Positions 13,933 to 21,644 of a stretch of DNA of 24,801 nt are shown here, piece by piece. The position numbers and the translations under genes are program-made. The stretch covers positions 1-24,801 of IMG/VR virus record IMGVR_UViG_3300021962_000614. One strand, 5' to 3'. Below the pieces are notes generated by a model. That model saw only the letters and a program-made list of their open reading frames with translations, made no database searches and was not told where the DNA came from. Every line of letters begins with the position of its first letter. Position 1 is the stretch's first letter. Origin of the DNA: a virus.

Positions 13933-14127
13933 ATGAAAGATAAAAAAAGCGCATGGTTAGAGCAGTTTAAGAGCGCAGATAAAACCAAACCTATCTGCAT
14001 CACTATAGATACTAAAACTCTGCAGATGTTAGAGGATATAGCAAAAGTAGCCAAAACATCGAAATCTAACGTTATCCGAGTAGCGATAGAATCTCTATAT
14101 AAAGATGGATCGAAAAATGCAAAATAA
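13933..14127 (+). CDS. Ribbon-helix-helix (CopG/Arc-type) regulator
   Basis: A 64-residue protein. KPICITIDTKTLQMLEDIAK followed by SKSNVIRVAIESLYKDG is a clear ribbon-helix-helix pattern: an N-terminal beta strand that pairs in a dimer and inserts in the DNA major groove, then two helices. The 3' end overlaps the start of the ParB-like gene by about 23 bases, so the two are translationally linked. The adjacent dyad at 13647-13677 is a possible binding site. Confidence 0.8.
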   Translation: MKDKKSAWLEQFKSADKTKPICITIDTKTLQMLEDIAKVAKTSKSNVIRVAIESLYKDGSKNAK

Positions 14128-14677
14128 AGAGTCTGTAGGCGAATGGGTAGATATATCTATACTGGTAGAGAATCCTAGAAATCCAAGAGTAAACGATCAG
14201 GCGGTAGAATCTGTAGCGAAGAGCATAAAGAGGTTCGGATTCTCTTCGCCGATCATCGCCAGAAGAGCAAATAACATGATCATAGCAGGGCATACTCGCT
14301 ATAAGGCATCTATAAAGCTCGGATTATCTACTGTACCAGTAAGGTATCTAGATCTAGATCCTGCAGATGCTGATCTATTGATGATCGCAGATAATAAGAT
14401 CGGAGAAAAAGCAGATTGGAATAACGATTTGCTATCCGAGATACTTACAGAGATGAATGGATTCGGATTAGAGTTAGATACTCTAGGCTTTTCGGAGGAG
14501 GAACTATCTAATCTTATAGATACTATGGATGTACTGGATAATAATGATCAATATATAGAAGAAGATCCTAAATTAACTTATAAATTAATAATAGAAGATC
14601 TAACAGAAGAAACACAATATGAGTTAATCGAAAAATTAGAAGCAGAGGGATATAAATGCAAACCATTGATATTATAA
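14105..14677 (+). CDS. ParB/Srx-fold domain protein
   Basis: A 190-residue protein with the ParB-type N-terminal domain: VENPRNPR (residues 21-28), an SIKRFGFSSPII segment, then IIAGHTRYKA (59-68, the GHxR signature) and LDPADADLLMIADNKIGE. No HTH domain of chromosomal ParB follows; an acidic helical region does (residues 105-150). Such short ParB-fold proteins are common in phages, some next to methyltransferases, where they may bind DNA or act as nucleases or CTP-dependent clamps. The start could instead be 14117. The gene overlaps the ABC-GNAT gene by 22 bp, tying it to that protein. The last 100 bp are markedly more AT-rich than the rest. Confidence 0.82.
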   Translation: MDRKMQNKESVGEWVDISILVENPRNPRVNDQAVESVAKSIKRFGFSSPIIARRANNMIIAGHTRYKASIKLGLSTVPVRYLDLDPADADLLMIADNKIGEKADWNNDLLSEILTEMNGFGLELDTLGFSEEELSNLIDTMDVLDNNDQYIEEDPKLTYKLIIEDLTEETQYELIEKLEAEGYKCKPLIL

Positions 14678-15756
14678 TAGAAAATAAACAAAATTTGTCT
14701 ACAAGATGTAAACAAATTGCAGGAATGTTCGATGTACCAATAGAAGAAAAATCTAGATTAGAATGGCATATAAATTCTAATGGATTAAATGAAAAAAAAT
14801 GGAATGTAGGTCTTATTGTAGGACCATCAGGATCTGGAAAATCTACCATAGGTAATCACTTATATAGTGAATATTTATCAAAAGATATAAAATGGGATGA
14901 AAATAGTGTAATTGATAATTTCCCAAAAAGTCTATCATTAGAAGAAATATGCTCTATTTGTAGCAGTGTAGGATTTAATACTATCCCAGCATGGTTTAGA
15001 AATTATGCAGTATTATCAAATGGAGAAAAATTTAGAATAGATCTAGCTAGAAGATTAGCAGAACAAGATAATATAATTGTTGTTGATGAATTTACATCTG
15101 TAGTAGATAGACAAGTAGCAAAAATCGGATCTCATTCAGTACAAAAAATAATTAGAAAACAAGATAGACAATTTGTAGGAATATCATGTCATTATGATAT
15201 TATAGACTGGTTACAACCTGACTGGATTATAGATGCTAGTAAGCAATCTCTAGAATGGAGGTCTCTTCGGCAAAGACCAAAAATTAATGCAGAGATCAGG
15301 AGAGTCTCATATGATTACTGGAAAATATTCAGTAAATATCACTATATGAGCAATACATTAAATAAGTCGGCTCGATGTTATGGTTTGTTCATTGATAATA
15401 ATATAATAGGTTTTTGTGCAGTATTGCATAATGTTGGTATTTCCAATAATCTAAAAAGAATATCTAGAATAGTTATTCTCCCTGATTGGCAAGGACTAGG
15501 ATTAGCATTTATTTTAGCTGAAACAATAGCATCTGCTTATATATCTATAGGATATGAATTTAGAAATTATCCAGCTCATCTATCATACATTAAAGCTCAT
15601 AAAAGATCTAAAAATTGGAGAAATTGTGGTATCAAAGGAATTTGTAAAAATAAAAATAAACCTCATATAGCTATGACAAGTAGATACTGTAACCCTTTTG
15701 AATATGTCGGAAAAAAAATGGATAAAGAAATCGCTATAAAATTTATAGGAGGATAA
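14656..15756 (+). CDS. ABC-ATPase/GNAT acyltransferase fusion (Mom-like)
   Basis: A 366-residue two-domain protein. The N-terminal ABC-type ATPase has Walker A GPSGSGKST (56-64), signature LSNGE (120-124), Walker B IIVVDEFTS (140-148) and a switch His in ISCHYD (179). It lacks membrane segments, so it is not a transporter. The C-terminal GNAT-like domain (about 215-366) has RIVILPDWQGLGLA with the acyl-CoA loop QGLGLA (279-284) and NYPAHLSYIKAHKRSKNW. GNAT-fold Mom of phage Mu modifies adenines in DNA; ABC-GNAT fusions beside terminase occur in other phages. DNA modification is thus a reasonable inference, not a demonstrated function. The gene is more AT-rich and far poorer in GATC than its neighbours, consistent with separate acquisition. 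Confidence 0.8.
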   Translation: MQTIDIIIENKQNLSTRCKQIAGMFDVPIEEKSRLEWHINSNGLNEKKWNVGLIVGPSGSGKSTIGNHLYSEYLSKDIKWDENSVIDNFPKSLSLEEICSICSSVGFNTIPAWFRNYAVLSNGEKFRIDLARRLAEQDNIIVVDEFTSVVDRQVAKIGSHSVQKIIRKQDRQFVGISCHYDIIDWLQPDWIIDASKQSLEWRSLRQRPKINAEIRRVSYDYWKIFSKYHYMSNTLNKSARCYGLFIDNNIIGFCAVLHNVGISNNLKRISRIVILPDWQGLGLAFILAETIASAYISIGYEFRNYPAHLSYIKAHKRSKNWRNCGIKGICKNKNKPHIAMTSRYCNPFEYVGKKMDKEIAIKFIGG

Positions 15757-15761
15757 TCTGT

Positions 15762-16199
15762 ATGAGTAGTGGCAGACCATCAAAATTAGATGGAAAAGTT
15801 AAAAAACTGATCCTCGATGCTATCTCTCTAGGGGCTACGAAGAGACAAGCATGCCAATATGCCAAGATTGACGAATCGACTCTATATGACTGGTTATCTA
15901 AAGGAAAAGGGCAGAGTAGAGGAATTTATTATGACTTTTACCAAGATTATCAGAGAGCAGAGGCATCTCCATGTATATATGCTCTAGGGGTAGTACAAAA
16001 AGCTATGAGAGAGGGAGATGTAAGATCGGCGATGTGGATACTGGAGAAAAAATATGGGTTTGGGCAGACTACTCCTCAAGTGCAAATTTCTGTAACTCCT
16101 GAAAATATGACGGTTACACAGTTAGTAAGAGAGATAGAGGATGTATCCAGTAGGATCGGAGTGCTATCGCCTCCTCCGATAGATCTCGATGAAGAATAA
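15762..16199 (+). CDS. terS: Terminase small subunit
   Basis: A 145-residue protein. GRPSKLDGKVKK and then ATKRQACQYAKIDESTLYDW form the N-terminal helix-turn-helix used by small terminases to recognise the packaging site; the centre is helical (oligomerisation) and the acidic C-terminus (PPPIDLDEE) suits contact with the large subunit. It is followed immediately by the large subunit. The ribosome site AGGAGG ten bases upstream lies at the end of the ABC-GNAT gene, five bases before whose stop-to-start gap, so all are in one operon. Confidence 0.88.
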   Translation: MSSGRPSKLDGKVKKLILDAISLGATKRQACQYAKIDESTLYDWLSKGKGQSRGIYYDFYQDYQRAEASPCIYALGVVQKAMREGDVRSAMWILEKKYGFGQTTPQVQISVTPENMTVTQLVREIEDVSSRIGVLSPPPIDLDEE

Positions 16200-16223
16200 A
16201 ATTATTAGAGAGCAGATAGCAGA

Positions 16224-17687
16224 ATGAATAAGCAGGATATGATCAAATATCTGCAATTGAGTGATAAGATCGAAAAAATAAAACAGACTACTCCTCTCTC
16301 TCTTGCGAAACTATGGACTCCGATCTGTCATAGATGGGATGGACTAGGATCGAAATCTCCTAGAGTTAGGGGATGTGGTAGATATATGGAATATGTAGAG
16401 AATGATCTATGGACATGTAAACACTGCGATATAAAAGAATCTCGATCTAGTCAATGGGGAGCGATCCGATCTATAACGTCAGAGGCTTATGGGATCTTCG
16501 GAGGTAATAGATCTGGTAAAACTGAATCTGTGGTTATGTTTGCTATAGCTACTGCTCTAGGGGCAAAAGATCCCAGTGTTAGAGACTGGCTAGAAATAAA
16601 TGGGCTACCTCCTGACTTTATACAAGATGATCCTGCAGAGGTGTGGATTTCTGCGCTATCTTATGGAGATGCCCTAACATATCTTCGCCCAAAAATAGAA
16701 AAGTTTGCTCCCAGTAATACGCAGTATATACGATGGAAAGCGCAGGATCGAGCCTCTGCGATCTTCCATAATGGAGGAAAGATCCTCTCTTTATCTGCAG
16801 AATCAGGGAGGGAAAAGTTTCAGGGAGGGGCAGTAAAGTTAGTAGTACTGGATGAGGAACATCCAAAAGATATATTTGATGAATGTATGCTCCGATGTGT
16901 AGATCATAAAGGGAGAGTACTGCTATCTATGACTGCACTTAAGGGGATAACATGGGTACACGATGTATTTATATCCAAGATTACTAGGGGATATGGATAT
17001 AGCTATATATCAGGGCTAGATAATCCCTATGTATCCTCCGTAAAACTGCGCAGATCTATCTCTCACATGTCAGATGAGAGCCAGCGATCTAGGCTATTCG
17101 GAGAATTTGTAAATCAGCAGGGGCTAGTATACTCGGAGTTTTCGATAAATATACATGTTGTACCATCTTTCGAACCTCCTGCAGACTGGGCTAGAGATAG
17201 AGCGATAGATTTCGGTGTAAAAAATCCTTTTTGTTGCCTATATTTTGCACACGATGAGAAAGACGATGTACTGCATGTATACAGAGAATACTATATGACA
17301 GAAAAGACTACTCTGGATAATGGCAGAAATCTAGAGCAGATACAGAAGAGATATGCAGAGGAGTATAGATGGACAGTAGCAGATCCAGAGAGTAAAGACG
17401 GGAGGCTAACTCTTATGAGGGAGTGCAATATAGATAATAAGCCAGCTCCAAAACATCTCGGAGTAGTAGAGACTATAAACTATGTAAAAGAACGCCTTGC
17501 AATAGATGCAGAGGGAAAAACACATCTAATCATTCACGATAATTGTAAGAATCTTTTGAAAGAGTTAAGATTATACAGATGGGCAGAGGGAGCAGGAGGA
17601 GATAGACCGATCAAAAAAGATGATCATGCTCTAGATGCTCTCCGATATGAGATTGCATTTTTAAAACGATGGCAGTTACACCAGTGA
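16224..17687 (+). CDS. terL: Terminase large subunit (ATPase-nuclease)
   Basis: A 487-residue packaging motor. ATPase: Walker A GGNRSGKT (93-100) and Walker B VVLDEE (207-212). Nuclease: RAIDFGVKNP (Asp329), VADPESKD (Asp387) and KKDDHALDALRYE (Asp466/467/471), the acidic cluster of the RNase H-like fold that cuts concatemers. An unusual N-terminal extension carries Cys/His pairs (Cys35-His36, Cys51, Cys65 and Cys68) that look like a zinc site before the ATPase. The ribosome site is weak (AGCAGA), so translation may rely on the small subunit upstream. The stop overlaps the HTH gene. Confidence 0.95.
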   Translation: MNKQDMIKYLQLSDKIEKIKQTTPLSLAKLWTPICHRWDGLGSKSPRVRGCGRYMEYVENDLWTCKHCDIKESRSSQWGAIRSITSEAYGIFGGNRSGKTESVVMFAIATALGAKDPSVRDWLEINGLPPDFIQDDPAEVWISALSYGDALTYLRPKIEKFAPSNTQYIRWKAQDRASAIFHNGGKILSLSAESGREKFQGGAVKLVVLDEEHPKDIFDECMLRCVDHKGRVLLSMTALKGITWVHDVFISKITRGYGYSYISGLDNPYVSSVKLRRSISHMSDESQRSRLFGEFVNQQGLVYSEFSINIHVVPSFEPPADWARDRAIDFGVKNPFCCLYFAHDEKDDVLHVYREYYMTEKTTLDNGRNLEQIQKRYAEEYRWTVADPESKDGRLTLMRECNIDNKPAPKHLGVVETINYVKERLAIDAEGKTHLIIHDNCKNLLKELRLYRWAEGAGGDRPIKKDDHALDALRYEIAFLKRWQLHQ

Positions 17688-18502: not shown

Positions 18503-18721
18503 ATGACTATAGATGGAATAAAAATAATAGACCTTACAAAGATCATTTATACAGTGTGTAGCGATAGAGGGATCTCTACTTTTGAGGCGATGGAAATAGC
18601 AGAAGAGATACTAGTTAGATCAGCTCTTCGAAGAGATATAAATAATTATCTAATAAGACTAGTAGGAAAGATTAAGCATAGACTTATCATAGAGGAGATC
18701 AATAGATGCCAAACTCTATAA
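18503..18721 (+). CDS. Small helical hypothetical protein
   Basis: A 72-residue, mostly helical protein starting one base after the previous stop and overlapping the next start by 16 bp. It has Ile/Leu-rich helices separated by charged turns (SALRRDINNYLIRLVGKIKH) and a basic character near the C-terminus. The ribosome site is weak (GGAG 12 bases before), so coupling is likely. No family recognised. Confidence 0.7.
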   Translation: MTIDGIKIIDLTKIIYTVCSDRGISTFEAMEIAEEILVRSALRRDINNYLIRLVGKIKHRLIIEEINRCQTL

Positions 18722-19008
18722 TAATAAATAATCGTCTGATTCTTAAAATGTGGAATAGCCAGATCGATCAAATAATCGAAGATCCCAAAAAGCATAATAT
18801 AGAAAAAATAGGATCTGCATTAAGAGAGGTAGATAGTAAGCAGATAGCATGGCTAAGATCGGATTATGGCATATCTGCAAAATGTGGAGAATGGATACAA
18901 GAGCTTAATATAGATGGTACATGGTTCTGCTCCTGTCCTGATTTCCAATATAGAGGCAGGATATGTAAGCATCTAGCAGTACTCTCCCATAACTGCACAA
19001 AATTTTAG
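18706..19008 (+). CDS. SWIM-type zinc finger protein
   Basis: A 100-residue protein ending in FCSCPDFQYRGRICKHLAVL, which fits the SWIM motif CxC-x(n)-CxH (here n = 9). SWIM domains bind zinc and contact DNA or protein; in cells they accompany SWI2/SNF2 ATPases, MuDR-type transposases and Sws1. Here it stands alone with an N-terminal helical region (residues 1-60), as in several small phage proteins. Last gene before the structural operon, so a role in late-gene activation or DNA processing is possible but not shown. Confidence 0.78.
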   Translation: MPNSIIINNRLILKMWNSQIDQIIEDPKKHNIEKIGSALREVDSKQIAWLRSDYGISAKCGEWIQELNIDGTWFCSCPDFQYRGRICKHLAVLSHNCTKF

Positions 19009-19085: not shown

Positions 19086-21644
19086 ATGGCAAACGAAATC
19101 GAAAAATCTAACTGGCTATCTCGCTTTTTATCTGTATTTCAGAGTAAAGCATTAAAAACAGTACAAGATCCGAAAGAGGTAAACAGAGGAGCAGGATGGA
19201 CTAGCACATTTGGGATCTCTCCTACGTTCTCTCCTCGTGCTAGTATGTCAGTATATGGCAAACATGCATATACTCATGCATGTGTTACTAGAGCCTCTCA
19301 AGATATAGCCTCTCTGCCTATAAAGTACTATCGTAAAGACGAGCAGATCTATGAAGATCCTTTTATATCTCTCATCGAGACTCCGAACTCTCAAGATAAT
19401 CAATATATTTTTATAGAGCAGTTAGTAGTCGATATTATGATGACTGGGAATCTTTATGTACTGATCATCGGAGATATATCTAGACCTGCTAGCCTATATC
19501 GTCTGCATCCAGAGCAAGTTAGGATTATACCAGATCCCATAAAGATGATCGCCGGCTATGAGTATAGCGATGGAGGATCTACTGTAATATATCCTCCTGA
19601 TAGAGTGATACATATCCGATCTGCATCATGGGATATAGGAGCTAGAGGCGAGCTATATGGCATGGGTATAGTAGAGGCTCTAAACGAAGAGATTACTGCC
19701 GATCTCAATGCCCAGCGAATGGCTAGTGCAGTATCAAAACAAGGGAGACCAGATGTTTTACTATCTCCTCAAGATCCTGCAGATATATGGGATAAGAAGA
19801 CAAGAGAAGACATCATGCAGAGCTATCGATCTATGACGAAAGATGGAGGAGCTATGGCATTATCAGGTCAGATAAAAGTAGATACTCTAGCACTATCTCC
19901 AAGAGACATTGAATTTCAAGCTCTGCGAACACTGGCTAGAGAGAATATATCTGCAGTATGTGGAGTACCCTCTACTGTTCTAGGACTACCTGACGCAAAT
20001 TACGCGACTGCGAGACAATCCTCTATTACTTACTGGCAGATACAAAAACAGAGATCAAAAAAGATCGAGTTTCTATTAAATAAGATCGCTAGATTATTCT
20101 CTCCTGATCTTTGGTGTATGATCGATTTTTCCGATGTCGATGCCTTGCAAGATATGCGATCTGCACAGTTACAGAGAGTGCAATATCATATCCTTAATGG
20201 TATGTCTCCAGCAGATGCCTACAATTATGAGGGGCTAGATAACTCTCCATTTTTGGAGCAGGTAGCAGTAGCAGATACTACTACGCAATCTATAGATCCT
20301 ACAGATATGATAGCTAGATCTATAGAGCAATTGTGCAAAACAGAAGAAGATACAGAGGATACTCTAGACTATGATGATATAGATCTACTCGAGTTAGAGA
20401 TAAACTACAATGTAGATCAAAAAAAAAATATTACAATTCATAGAGGATCTGTAGGAGATAATAACCCTACAAATTTTCCTGAAGATGGAGACGATAAAGA
20501 GGTAGCTCTACGAAATTCAAACTATGAGAGATTTCCATATCAGGAGGCTCTATCGCTTAAAGAGCAGTATCCAGAGATATGGAAAAGAGCAGGGAATATA
20601 CTAGGGAATCTTCAGTTTTCGAGGCTCTTACCGATAGCAGAAAGATCCTCTAGTATAGCCCAAACTGATACAGAAGAGTTAGCAATCCGTTTACGAGAAG
20701 CATGGGGAGCTAGACATTTCGATGATTATCGGCTCAATGGTGTAGTAGCTCAAATAAAATGGCTAGTAGTAGGATCTCGTGGATTATCACACATGAGAAA
20801 GGTTATCTCGGATGAGAAGAGAAGACTAGATGCAAAAAAAAGATCCTTCAGATCGCAGGAGCAGAAAGATCTCTACTGGCATCAATGGAATGTTAAAGCC
20901 CTAGAACCATCGCAGAACGCATTAAATACTGCTAGTACTAACTATCTGCTATCTGCCTCTACTAGATATGCTCTTCGATCTTCTACTCTCATAAATGCGA
21001 TACAAAATAAATCATACGAAGAGAAAAATATAAACTACTCCCAGCTACTAGGGAGAGCTATAGAGATTAAGGCTATAAAAGATAGTATCGGTAGAGTATG
21101 GAGCAGTATATGGACTCTTACCGGAAACGATAACCTGACAGAACTTTATGCATTGACAGGAAAAACTAGACCTCTCGATCTAGATTTCGGACTACGATCC
21201 CTCTCCGATCCTATGATCTCGAAGATGGCTACAGAGATAGTAGATACTACAGAGAGAGAGGTAAAAGAAATAGTTAGGACTGGTATAGAGCAGGGTCTAT
21301 CTAATGAGCAGATAGCCAAAAATATAAAAAGTGCTACATCTTTCTCGGATGCTCGATCTATGATGATAGCGCAAACAGAGGCAACTAGATCTATAAATGA
21401 ATCTACTGTACAATCTTATCAGCTCTTCGAAAAAACGGAAAATGTGCAAGTTATGAAAGAATGGATCTCTAGTAGAGATGGAAAAGTAAGAGACGAGCAT
21501 AGAGAGCTAGATCTAGATGCTCCGATACCAGTAACTCAAGATTTTGAGGTTAATGGGTATCGAGGATCTGCTCCCTCAAATTTTGGAGTACCTGCAATGG
21601 ATATCAATTGCAGATGTACCATAGCCCCAGTAATAAAGGATTAA
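19086..21644 (+). CDS. Portal protein fused to MuF-like head morphogenesis domain
   Basis: An 852-residue protein, the longest in the window. The N-terminal 400 residues are an HK97-type portal: HAYTHACVTRASQDIASLPI, VVDIMMTGNLYVLI, then GVPSTVLGLPDANYATARQS. A linker rich in Asp/Glu follows (about 420-470). The last 190 residues form an SPP1 gp7/Mu F-like domain, with MIAQTEATRSINES near 760 and MKEWISSRDGKVRDEH, then INCRC (840-844). Portals form the dodecameric DNA gate; MuF-type proteins are packaged with the head and may enter the cell. Normally these are two genes. The fused frame is continuous with no internal stop, so it is a genuine fusion here. Ribosome site AAGGAG. Confidence 0.9.
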   Translation: MANEIEKSNWLSRFLSVFQSKALKTVQDPKEVNRGAGWTSTFGISPTFSPRASMSVYGKHAYTHACVTRASQDIASLPIKYYRKDEQIYEDPFISLIETPNSQDNQYIFIEQLVVDIMMTGNLYVLIIGDISRPASLYRLHPEQVRIIPDPIKMIAGYEYSDGGSTVIYPPDRVIHIRSASWDIGARGELYGMGIVEALNEEITADLNAQRMASAVSKQGRPDVLLSPQDPADIWDKKTREDIMQSYRSMTKDGGAMALSGQIKVDTLALSPRDIEFQALRTLARENISAVCGVPSTVLGLPDANYATARQSSITYWQIQKQRSKKIEFLLNKIARLFSPDLWCMIDFSDVDALQDMRSAQLQRVQYHILNGMSPADAYNYEGLDNSPFLEQVAVADTTTQSIDPTDMIARSIEQLCKTEEDTEDTLDYDDIDLLELEINYNVDQKKNITIHRGSVGDNNPTNFPEDGDDKEVALRNSNYERFPYQEALSLKEQYPEIWKRAGNILGNLQFSRLLPIAERSSSIAQTDTEELAIRLREAWGARHFDDYRLNGVVAQIKWLVVGSRGLSHMRKVISDEKRRLDAKKRSFRSQEQKDLYWHQWNVKALEPSQNALNTASTNYLLSASTRYALRSSTLINAIQNKSYEEKNINYSQLLGRAIEIKAIKDSIGRVWSSIWTLTGNDNLTELYALTGKTRPLDLDFGLRSLSDPMISKMATEIVDTTEREVKEIVRTGIEQGLSNEQIAKNIKSATSFSDARSMMIAQTEATRSINESTVQSYQLFEKTENVQVMKEWISSRDGKVRDEHRELDLDAPIPVTQDFEVNGYRGSAPSNFGVPAMDINCRCTIAPVIKD

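Follow-up and report, generated by a model that had tools for sequence, protein, structure and literature searches.

A ParB-domain protein and an ABC-ATPase/GNAT fusion beside the terminase genes of a virus: a predicted system for acylation of DNA bases

What might an ABC-type ATPase fused to a GNAT acyltransferase domain do when its gene lies between a ParB-domain gene and the genes for DNA packaging? The question is raised by a 24.8-kb virus record (IMG/VR IMGVR_UViG_3300021962_000614; positions 1 to 24,801, here termed the window), in which open reading frames were called by program and the proteins searched with Pfam and PHROG profiles. The ParB-domain gene, the ABC-GNAT fusion gene and the genes for the small and large terminase subunits (TerS and TerL) are closely packed in a row, as an earlier note made from the sequence alone had described: the first two overlap by 22 nt, and gaps of 5 and 24 nt precede TerS and TerL, respectively (Table 1). 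The best reading, which is considered likely, is that ParB and the fusion constitute a ParB-guided, ATP-gated DNA base acyltransferase located beside the packaging genes. This reading is based on the gene set, conservation, partner swapping, co-evolution and predicted fold. The mechanism given below goes beyond gene association and predicted fold and is inferred.

Viral relatives whose upstream sequence extends to 500 nt or more served to assess the linkage to ParB. A ParB-domain gene is upstream of ABC-GNAT in all 77, no more than 300 nt away in 74, and ParB is also upstream in most of 80 loci from bacterial genomes. Of the approximately 64 viral relatives with sufficient sequence, at least 49 have a co-oriented TerL gene on the 3′ side, an association that supports the earlier claim that the unit stays beside the terminase, and TerL is 3′ of ABC-GNAT in 42 of the 80 bacterial-genome loci. 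Both linkages, to ParB upstream and to TerL downstream, are far beyond chance. The downstream TerL proteins of the viral relatives are of several Pfam types (Terminase_6, TerL_ATPase/nuclease and GpA), and thus the position of the cassette has been maintained across change of terminase type. A different setting is seen in Pseudomonas phage Komp_PAO1_1 (L374:3995-5721), where ABC-GNAT is overlapped by a formyl-transferase-domain gene and the neighbours are tail-fibre assembly genes, not terminase.

Adjacency to the terminase may signify marking of DNA ahead of packaging or just a slot among late genes. Packaging of phage P1 depends on methylation of pac, and a comparable licence might operate here rather than, or besides, anti-restriction, with acylation of bases in or close to the packaging site causing TerS/TerL to start cutting there. 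This would fit the constant location of the unit 5′ of the terminase, whatever the terminase type and in many hosts, and also the methylases that take the same slot (see below). However, the copy in Tenacibaculum phage pT24 and annotated Mom-ParB pairs are away from annotated terminase genes, and a late-gene position could by itself account for the neighbourhood. A packaging licence is deemed improbable.

At the junction between ParB and the fusion, the exact 22-nt overlap is present in 74 loci, among them Lactococcus P335 and Streptococcus Javan523, in every case at a conserved Cys codon, and in 69 of the 74 the codons just before it contain a Shine-Dalgarno-like motif. A ribosome-binding site and an ATG situated within conserved ParB codons explain the conserved overlap without a frameshift. 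A programmed frameshift that would form a ParB-ABC fusion, which the frame relation permits, was rejected on this ground, although the loci were not scanned for slippery sites. Locus L128 was rejected as a natural triple fusion because frame errors garble its ParB portion.

The C-terminal tail of ParB differs with the partner: it has the EGxxCxxLI ending with ABC-GNAT and a zinc ribbon with Mom, the GNAT-related modifier of DNA adenine typified by that of phage Mu. In a covariation analysis that left out the residues encoded in the overlap, tail similarity tracked that of ABC plus GNAT, given the N-domain (0.38, with 0 of 200 permutations as high); against its own ParB N-domain, given ABC, the value was 0.02. 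Judged by these sequence comparisons, the tail evolves with ABC-GNAT and not with its own N-domain. Third-position G + C in the window is 0.34 for the ParB N-domain, 0.13 for the tail, 0.11-0.18 for ABC-GNAT and again 0.32 for TerS (neighbours 0.30-0.34), a drop that is expected if tail and enzyme moved jointly. Low third-position G + C of tail and ABC-GNAT was discarded as a general trait, as apart from the window it is seen in just a few AT-rich relatives. ParB_N is the sole domain matched in the ParB protein, with no helix-turn-helix (parS-binding) domain, and no ParA was found among the window proteins scanned, which included part of the small open reading frames; the protein thus does not have the hallmarks of a partition ParB (ParABS). 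At L301:564-1004, and at the near-identical L302, a small HNH-like zinc-motif gene lies between ParB and ABC-GNAT; the L301 ABC-GNAT is split by a frame change.

The other partners of the ParB domain were surveyed in 80 viral loci retrieved by one ABC-linked ParB N-domain query, blind to partner. An N6/N4 DNA methylase is present in 31 of the 32 long ParB fusions scanned. Among 20 separate partner genes scanned are seven C5 methylases, five TET-associated glycosyltransferases (TAGT) and five N6/N4 methylases; ABC-GNAT (five, plus L301 and L302) and Mom (three) are further partners. Because Moms as a whole vary too much for an alignment that could be used in a scan, one actinophage-type subfamily was used. 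A ParB-domain gene adjoins Mom in 78 of 80 loci of this subfamily (L210-L289), a figure that holds for it alone, and in 0 of 32 loci of Mu-type Mom. The methylase, glycosyltransferase and Mom partners support, by association, the earlier proposal that the ParB domain serves a modifying enzyme. In a quick tree of 107 ParB domains, built from few columns, ABC-linked and Mom-linked members are interleaved. The tree requires 16 parsimony changes of partner versus 35.9 expected if random, and at least eight changes are forced by well-supported (starred) branches. A published precedent for ParB beside a DNA modifier is provided by ParBc genes near the cytosine carboxymethyltransferase CmoX, where the role of the ParB domain in phage methylases is given as unknown (PMC12783734). 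The CmoX system has the same ParB N-domain type nearby, but uses SAM-type (S-adenosylmethionine) transfer and no ATPase.

A natural exchange of partners is found in the Streptococcus prophages Javan523 and Javan128. Their ParB domains are 84% identical over 144 aa, and the upstream genes 79%. In Javan128, ParB continues into an N6/N4 DNA methylase, whereas the Javan523 protein terminates with the tail, and ABC and GNAT come next. Both cassettes are upstream of terminase genes, and the two TerL proteins are unrelated by BLASTP. Javan316 and Lactobacillus CR191 carry ParB-methylase in the same slot. Phage ParB fusions with N6/N4 methylases (phrog_498) share the ParB N-domain type and the slot with ABC-GNAT and exchange with it, but are single polypeptides with SAM-type transfer and no ATPase, unlike the pair of ParB and ABC-GNAT. 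Javan523 and Javan128 represent a matched natural control, with methylase or ABC-GNAT behind closely similar ParB domains.

The exchange also bears on the substrate. Most GNATs modify proteins or small molecules, the GNAT model finds protein acetyltransferases as its top matches in the PDB, and the phage GNAT Rac acetylates RNA polymerase, as quoted in PMC7824862. The GNAT might thus acylate RNA or a protein, such as one of the host nucleoid, RNA polymerase or terminase, with ParB adjacent for other reasons. This is quite unlikely, as DNA bases are the targets of all other enzymes identified as partners of the ParB domain, and ABC-GNAT is replaced one for one by a DNA methylase behind a near-identical ParB in the Javan pair.

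The fusion protein matches phrog_11143, whose function is unassigned in PHROG, over its full length (residues 6-356, E 5.5e-101 in a profile search). Conservation of its motifs was counted across 163 homologues. In addition to the motifs listed in Table 1, the ABC domain has a nearly invariant D-loop and a conserved Asp (D87) in the region taken as the Q-loop, an approximate assignment. No membrane segment is present in the fusion (highest 19-residue hydropathy 1.66), and an ABC transporter membrane domain is absent both from the fusion and from the adjacent ParB and terminase genes. The earlier description of complete Walker A, signature and Walker B motifs and no membrane part is thus correct. 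An AlphaFold2 model of the whole fusion displays two domains and is confident (predicted local distance difference test score, pLDDT, 90.9). The invariant H229-Y230 pair is a candidate for catalytic or base-contact residues, to judge from its conservation. As many as 78 phage records, with a wide variety of hosts, contain the family, some of the weaker matches being to the ABC part only. Cultured members include Leptospira biflexa phage LE4 and Lactococcus phage P335, in which ABC and GNAT are encoded separately. Homologues occur also in bacterial genomes (Planctomycetota, Nonomuraea, Endozoicomonas and others), many with an adjoining terminase, and the pT24 homologue was recovered by tblastn. 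COG2401, an archaeal ABC-type ATPase fused to a predicted acetyltransferase, has, to go by its name, a like combination of domains.

Table 1. Coordinates of the genes, domains and motifs of the packaging-side operon in the window.
Feature	Position	Strand	Description
ParB-domain protein	14105-14677	+	190 aa; Pfam ParB_N 8e-10; phrog_620 and phrog_498 matches
ParB N-terminal domain (residues 1-150)	14105-14554	+	ParB_N; proposed DNA-binding/targeting part
ParB C-terminal tail	14555-14674	+	beta-alpha-beta by pattern, ends E-G-x-x-C-x-x-L-I; proposed ABC-GNAT docking part
Translational coupling element	14645-14677	+	Shine-Dalgarno-like GAGGG 14645-14649; ATG 14656 in ParB Cys codon region
ABC-ATPase/GNAT fusion	14656-15756	+	366 aa; ABC_tran 2e-8; Acetyltransf_1 2e-5; phrog_11143
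Walker A GPSGSGKS (residues 56-63)	14821-14844	+	G, G and K kept in 162/163 homologues
ABC signature LSNGE (residues 120-124)	15013-15027	+	L, S and G kept in all 163 homologues
Walker B and catalytic Glu (residues 141-145)	15076-15090	+	D144 and E145 invariant in 163
H-loop His179	15190-15192	+	invariant in 163 homologues
GNAT domain (residues 208-366)	15277-15753	+	Acetyltransf_1; GNAT-fold model pLDDT 89.2; PDB matches are GNATs
His-Tyr pair (H229-Y230)	15340-15345	+	163/163 homologues
Acyl-CoA binding loop QGLGLA (residues 279-284)	15490-15507	+	Q/RxxGxG/A loop of the GNAT superfamily
Terminase small subunit (TerS)	15762-16199	+	phrog_4102 3e-21
Terminase large subunit (TerL)	16224-17687	+	Pfam Terminase_6N

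The GNAT domain had earlier been likened to Mom because of its acyl-CoA loop and its tail. The loop is real, but Mom does not have a QxxGxG loop, and the likeness does not hold. The fusion has no match to the Pfam Mom family PF25680 at E 0.1 (2e-75 for the Mu Mom control). An hhalign profile-profile comparison gives a probability of 6-12%, and with larger alignments, tried as a route to Mom homology, it became weaker (12% to 6%), not stronger. By sequence and alignment comparison the Mom signatures SxAD and GxxYQAxN(W/F) are absent from the fusion. The only Mom motif in common is the His-Tyr pair, found in 89 of 91 Mom proteins and aligned by hhalign with H229-Y230. A fold search with the GNAT-domain model yielded generic GNATs, among them protein acetyltransferases, as the best PDB matches. 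Mom structure 8bv8 is absent from the 50 matches listed, and in a viral fold library a Mom-family protein of phage LP65 is at rank 7 and a Mom only at rank 11. On these grounds the fusion is not a Mom, and that assignment is rejected. It resembles Mu Mom (PF25680; 8bv8) in being GNAT-related and in the His-Tyr motif, and one Mom subfamily also has the ParB domain; it differs in the profile, in keeping the acyl-CoA loop, in the fused ABC ATPase and in the ParB tail. A true Mom system, in which the ABC domain would be an accessory and the product of the GNAT N6-carbamoylmethyl-adenine, formed as in Mom, has in its favour the aligned invariant His-Tyr pair, the shared ParB domain and the viral fold rank, but is very improbable given the profile comparisons, the missing SxAD and YQAxN motifs, the acyl-CoA loop and the different kind of ParB tail.

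For a ParB-guided acyltransferase the following steps are envisaged. The ParB N-domain would bind phage DNA and set the site of enzyme action. Its C-terminal tail, as conservation suggests, would dock ABC-GNAT, which is probably produced from the overlapping gene by translational coupling. The ABC dimer might, as it binds and hydrolyses ATP in turn, open or hold the duplex and present a base, by analogy with TmcA. The GNAT would then use acyl-CoA to acylate an exocyclic amine, cytosine N4 or adenine N6. The donor in the window is probably a host acyl-CoA, e.g. acetyl-CoA, while in a subset of relatives beta-alanyl-CoA probably comes from two phage enzymes, aspartate decarboxylase and CoA-transferase. 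The unit would act late, beside the terminase, and the DNA would be marked ahead of packaging, most likely against host nucleases. Of the modify-then-package module put forward earlier, DNA modification is supported by several lines of association; the ATP-driven clamp and the role against host restriction are hypothetical. TmcA/NAT10, the cytidine N4-acetyltransferase, is alike in having an ATPase and a GNAT in one chain and a nucleic acid base as target, but acts on RNA and has a low global TM-score to the fusion model; TmcA (2zpa) is at rank 22 among the PDB matches listed for the whole model. The ATPase of TmcA is helicase-like, not ABC.

The evidence for a phage-encoded donor comes from relatives. 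In eight of approximately 160 relatives an aspartate decarboxylase (PanD) gene is directly 3′ of ABC-GNAT and is followed by a short CoA-transferase of family III; complete copies of PanD display the self-cleavage motif Y-x-G-S. A reverse search with the cassette PanD as query yielded 47 viral loci, 22 of which have the complete order ParB, ABC-GNAT, PanD, CoA-transferase. Two more have ABC-GNAT but no ParB in the available sequence, one ends at a contig edge, and in five of the remaining PanD loci ABC-GNAT is 1.2 kb further on. Fifteen distinct PanDs adjoin a CoA-transferase. This strict order points to a beta-alanyl-CoA donor, and it is reasonable to infer that beta-alanine from PanD, activated as the CoA ester, is the donor in these relatives. 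Alternatively, PanD might decarboxylate an aspartyl adduct already on the DNA. The four-gene order occurs across unrelated hosts (L071:106-2826, L087:5447-8212, L068, L063, L164, L156, L379-L401 and L424), and at L390, L392-L396 and L424 the PanD/CoA-transferase pair has an ABC-GNAT gene on either side. Rhodococcus/Gordonia phage Jace is another carrier of both PanD and CoA-transferase. A linkage of PanD to Mom in L408-L411 was rejected, the genes being 2.7 kb apart. In Streptococcus phage Javan523 an ASCH-domain protein (L083:7131-7508) is encoded just 3′ of the GNAT; YqfB, an ASCH protein of E. coli, is active towards N4-acylcytosine derivatives (PMC6972931). An ASCH amidohydrolase was discarded as a consistent neighbour, with one among 102 downstream genes.

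Several points weigh against a ParB-guided DNA base acyltransferase. Gene association does not prove a DNA substrate, and no biochemical or mass-spectrometric datum was found for any family member. The likeness to TmcA is weak (TM-score 0.30), and neither PanD nor CoA-transferase adjoins the cassette in the window. No recognisable ParB is present at pT24 and two genome loci, and ParB is thus not absolutely required. Serratia phage eta, which has a ParB homologue, displayed no modified nucleoside by high-performance liquid chromatography (PMC3918226), although the genes beside that homologue were not examined.

Other genes of the window surround the cassette. An open reading frame for a ribbon-helix-helix repressor-like protein (13933-14127) overlaps the first 23 nt of the ParB gene and possibly encodes a regulator of the cassette. 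On the 3′ side of TerL are a few small open reading frames, followed by genes for the portal, a head protease and major head proteins. A 100-aa SWIM zinc finger protein is encoded between terminase and portal (18706-19008), and a single protein of 852 aa (19086-21644) comprises the portal (residues 28-403) and a head-morphogenesis domain (711-852).

An ABC-ATPase-coupled GNAT has been predicted to acylate DNA bases, with pT24 as the example (Iyer 2013, as restated in PMC7824862). The basic idea is therefore a known, published prediction, and the ParB and partner context is what the present analysis adds. The family of the 2013 prediction and of phrog_11143 has the same two domains and the same predicted role. 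The pT24 copy is annotated as two genes and is without a recognisable adjoining ParB, whereas the window has one fusion with ParB. Acylation of DNA bases of the predicted kind has never been seen, as far as the literature found shows. To the prediction, known here through its restatement, are now added the ParB partner and a likely division of labour, as well as the natural control pair and a specific mass to seek in relatives with their own aspartate decarboxylase. The findings suggest that the ParB domain in phage methylases is a common component by which various writers are recruited to DNA. Tentatively, it might be proposed that ParB N-domains are a general plug-in module for loading or targeting of phage DNA writers, swapped among methylases, glycosyltransferases, Mom and ABC-GNAT via a partner-specific tail, and that ABC-GNAT writes a new DNA base by ATP-dependent chemistry. 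In phages with PanD and CoA-transferase this base would be beta-alanylated (+71.04 Da), and elsewhere acetylated (+42.01 Da) or otherwise acylated.

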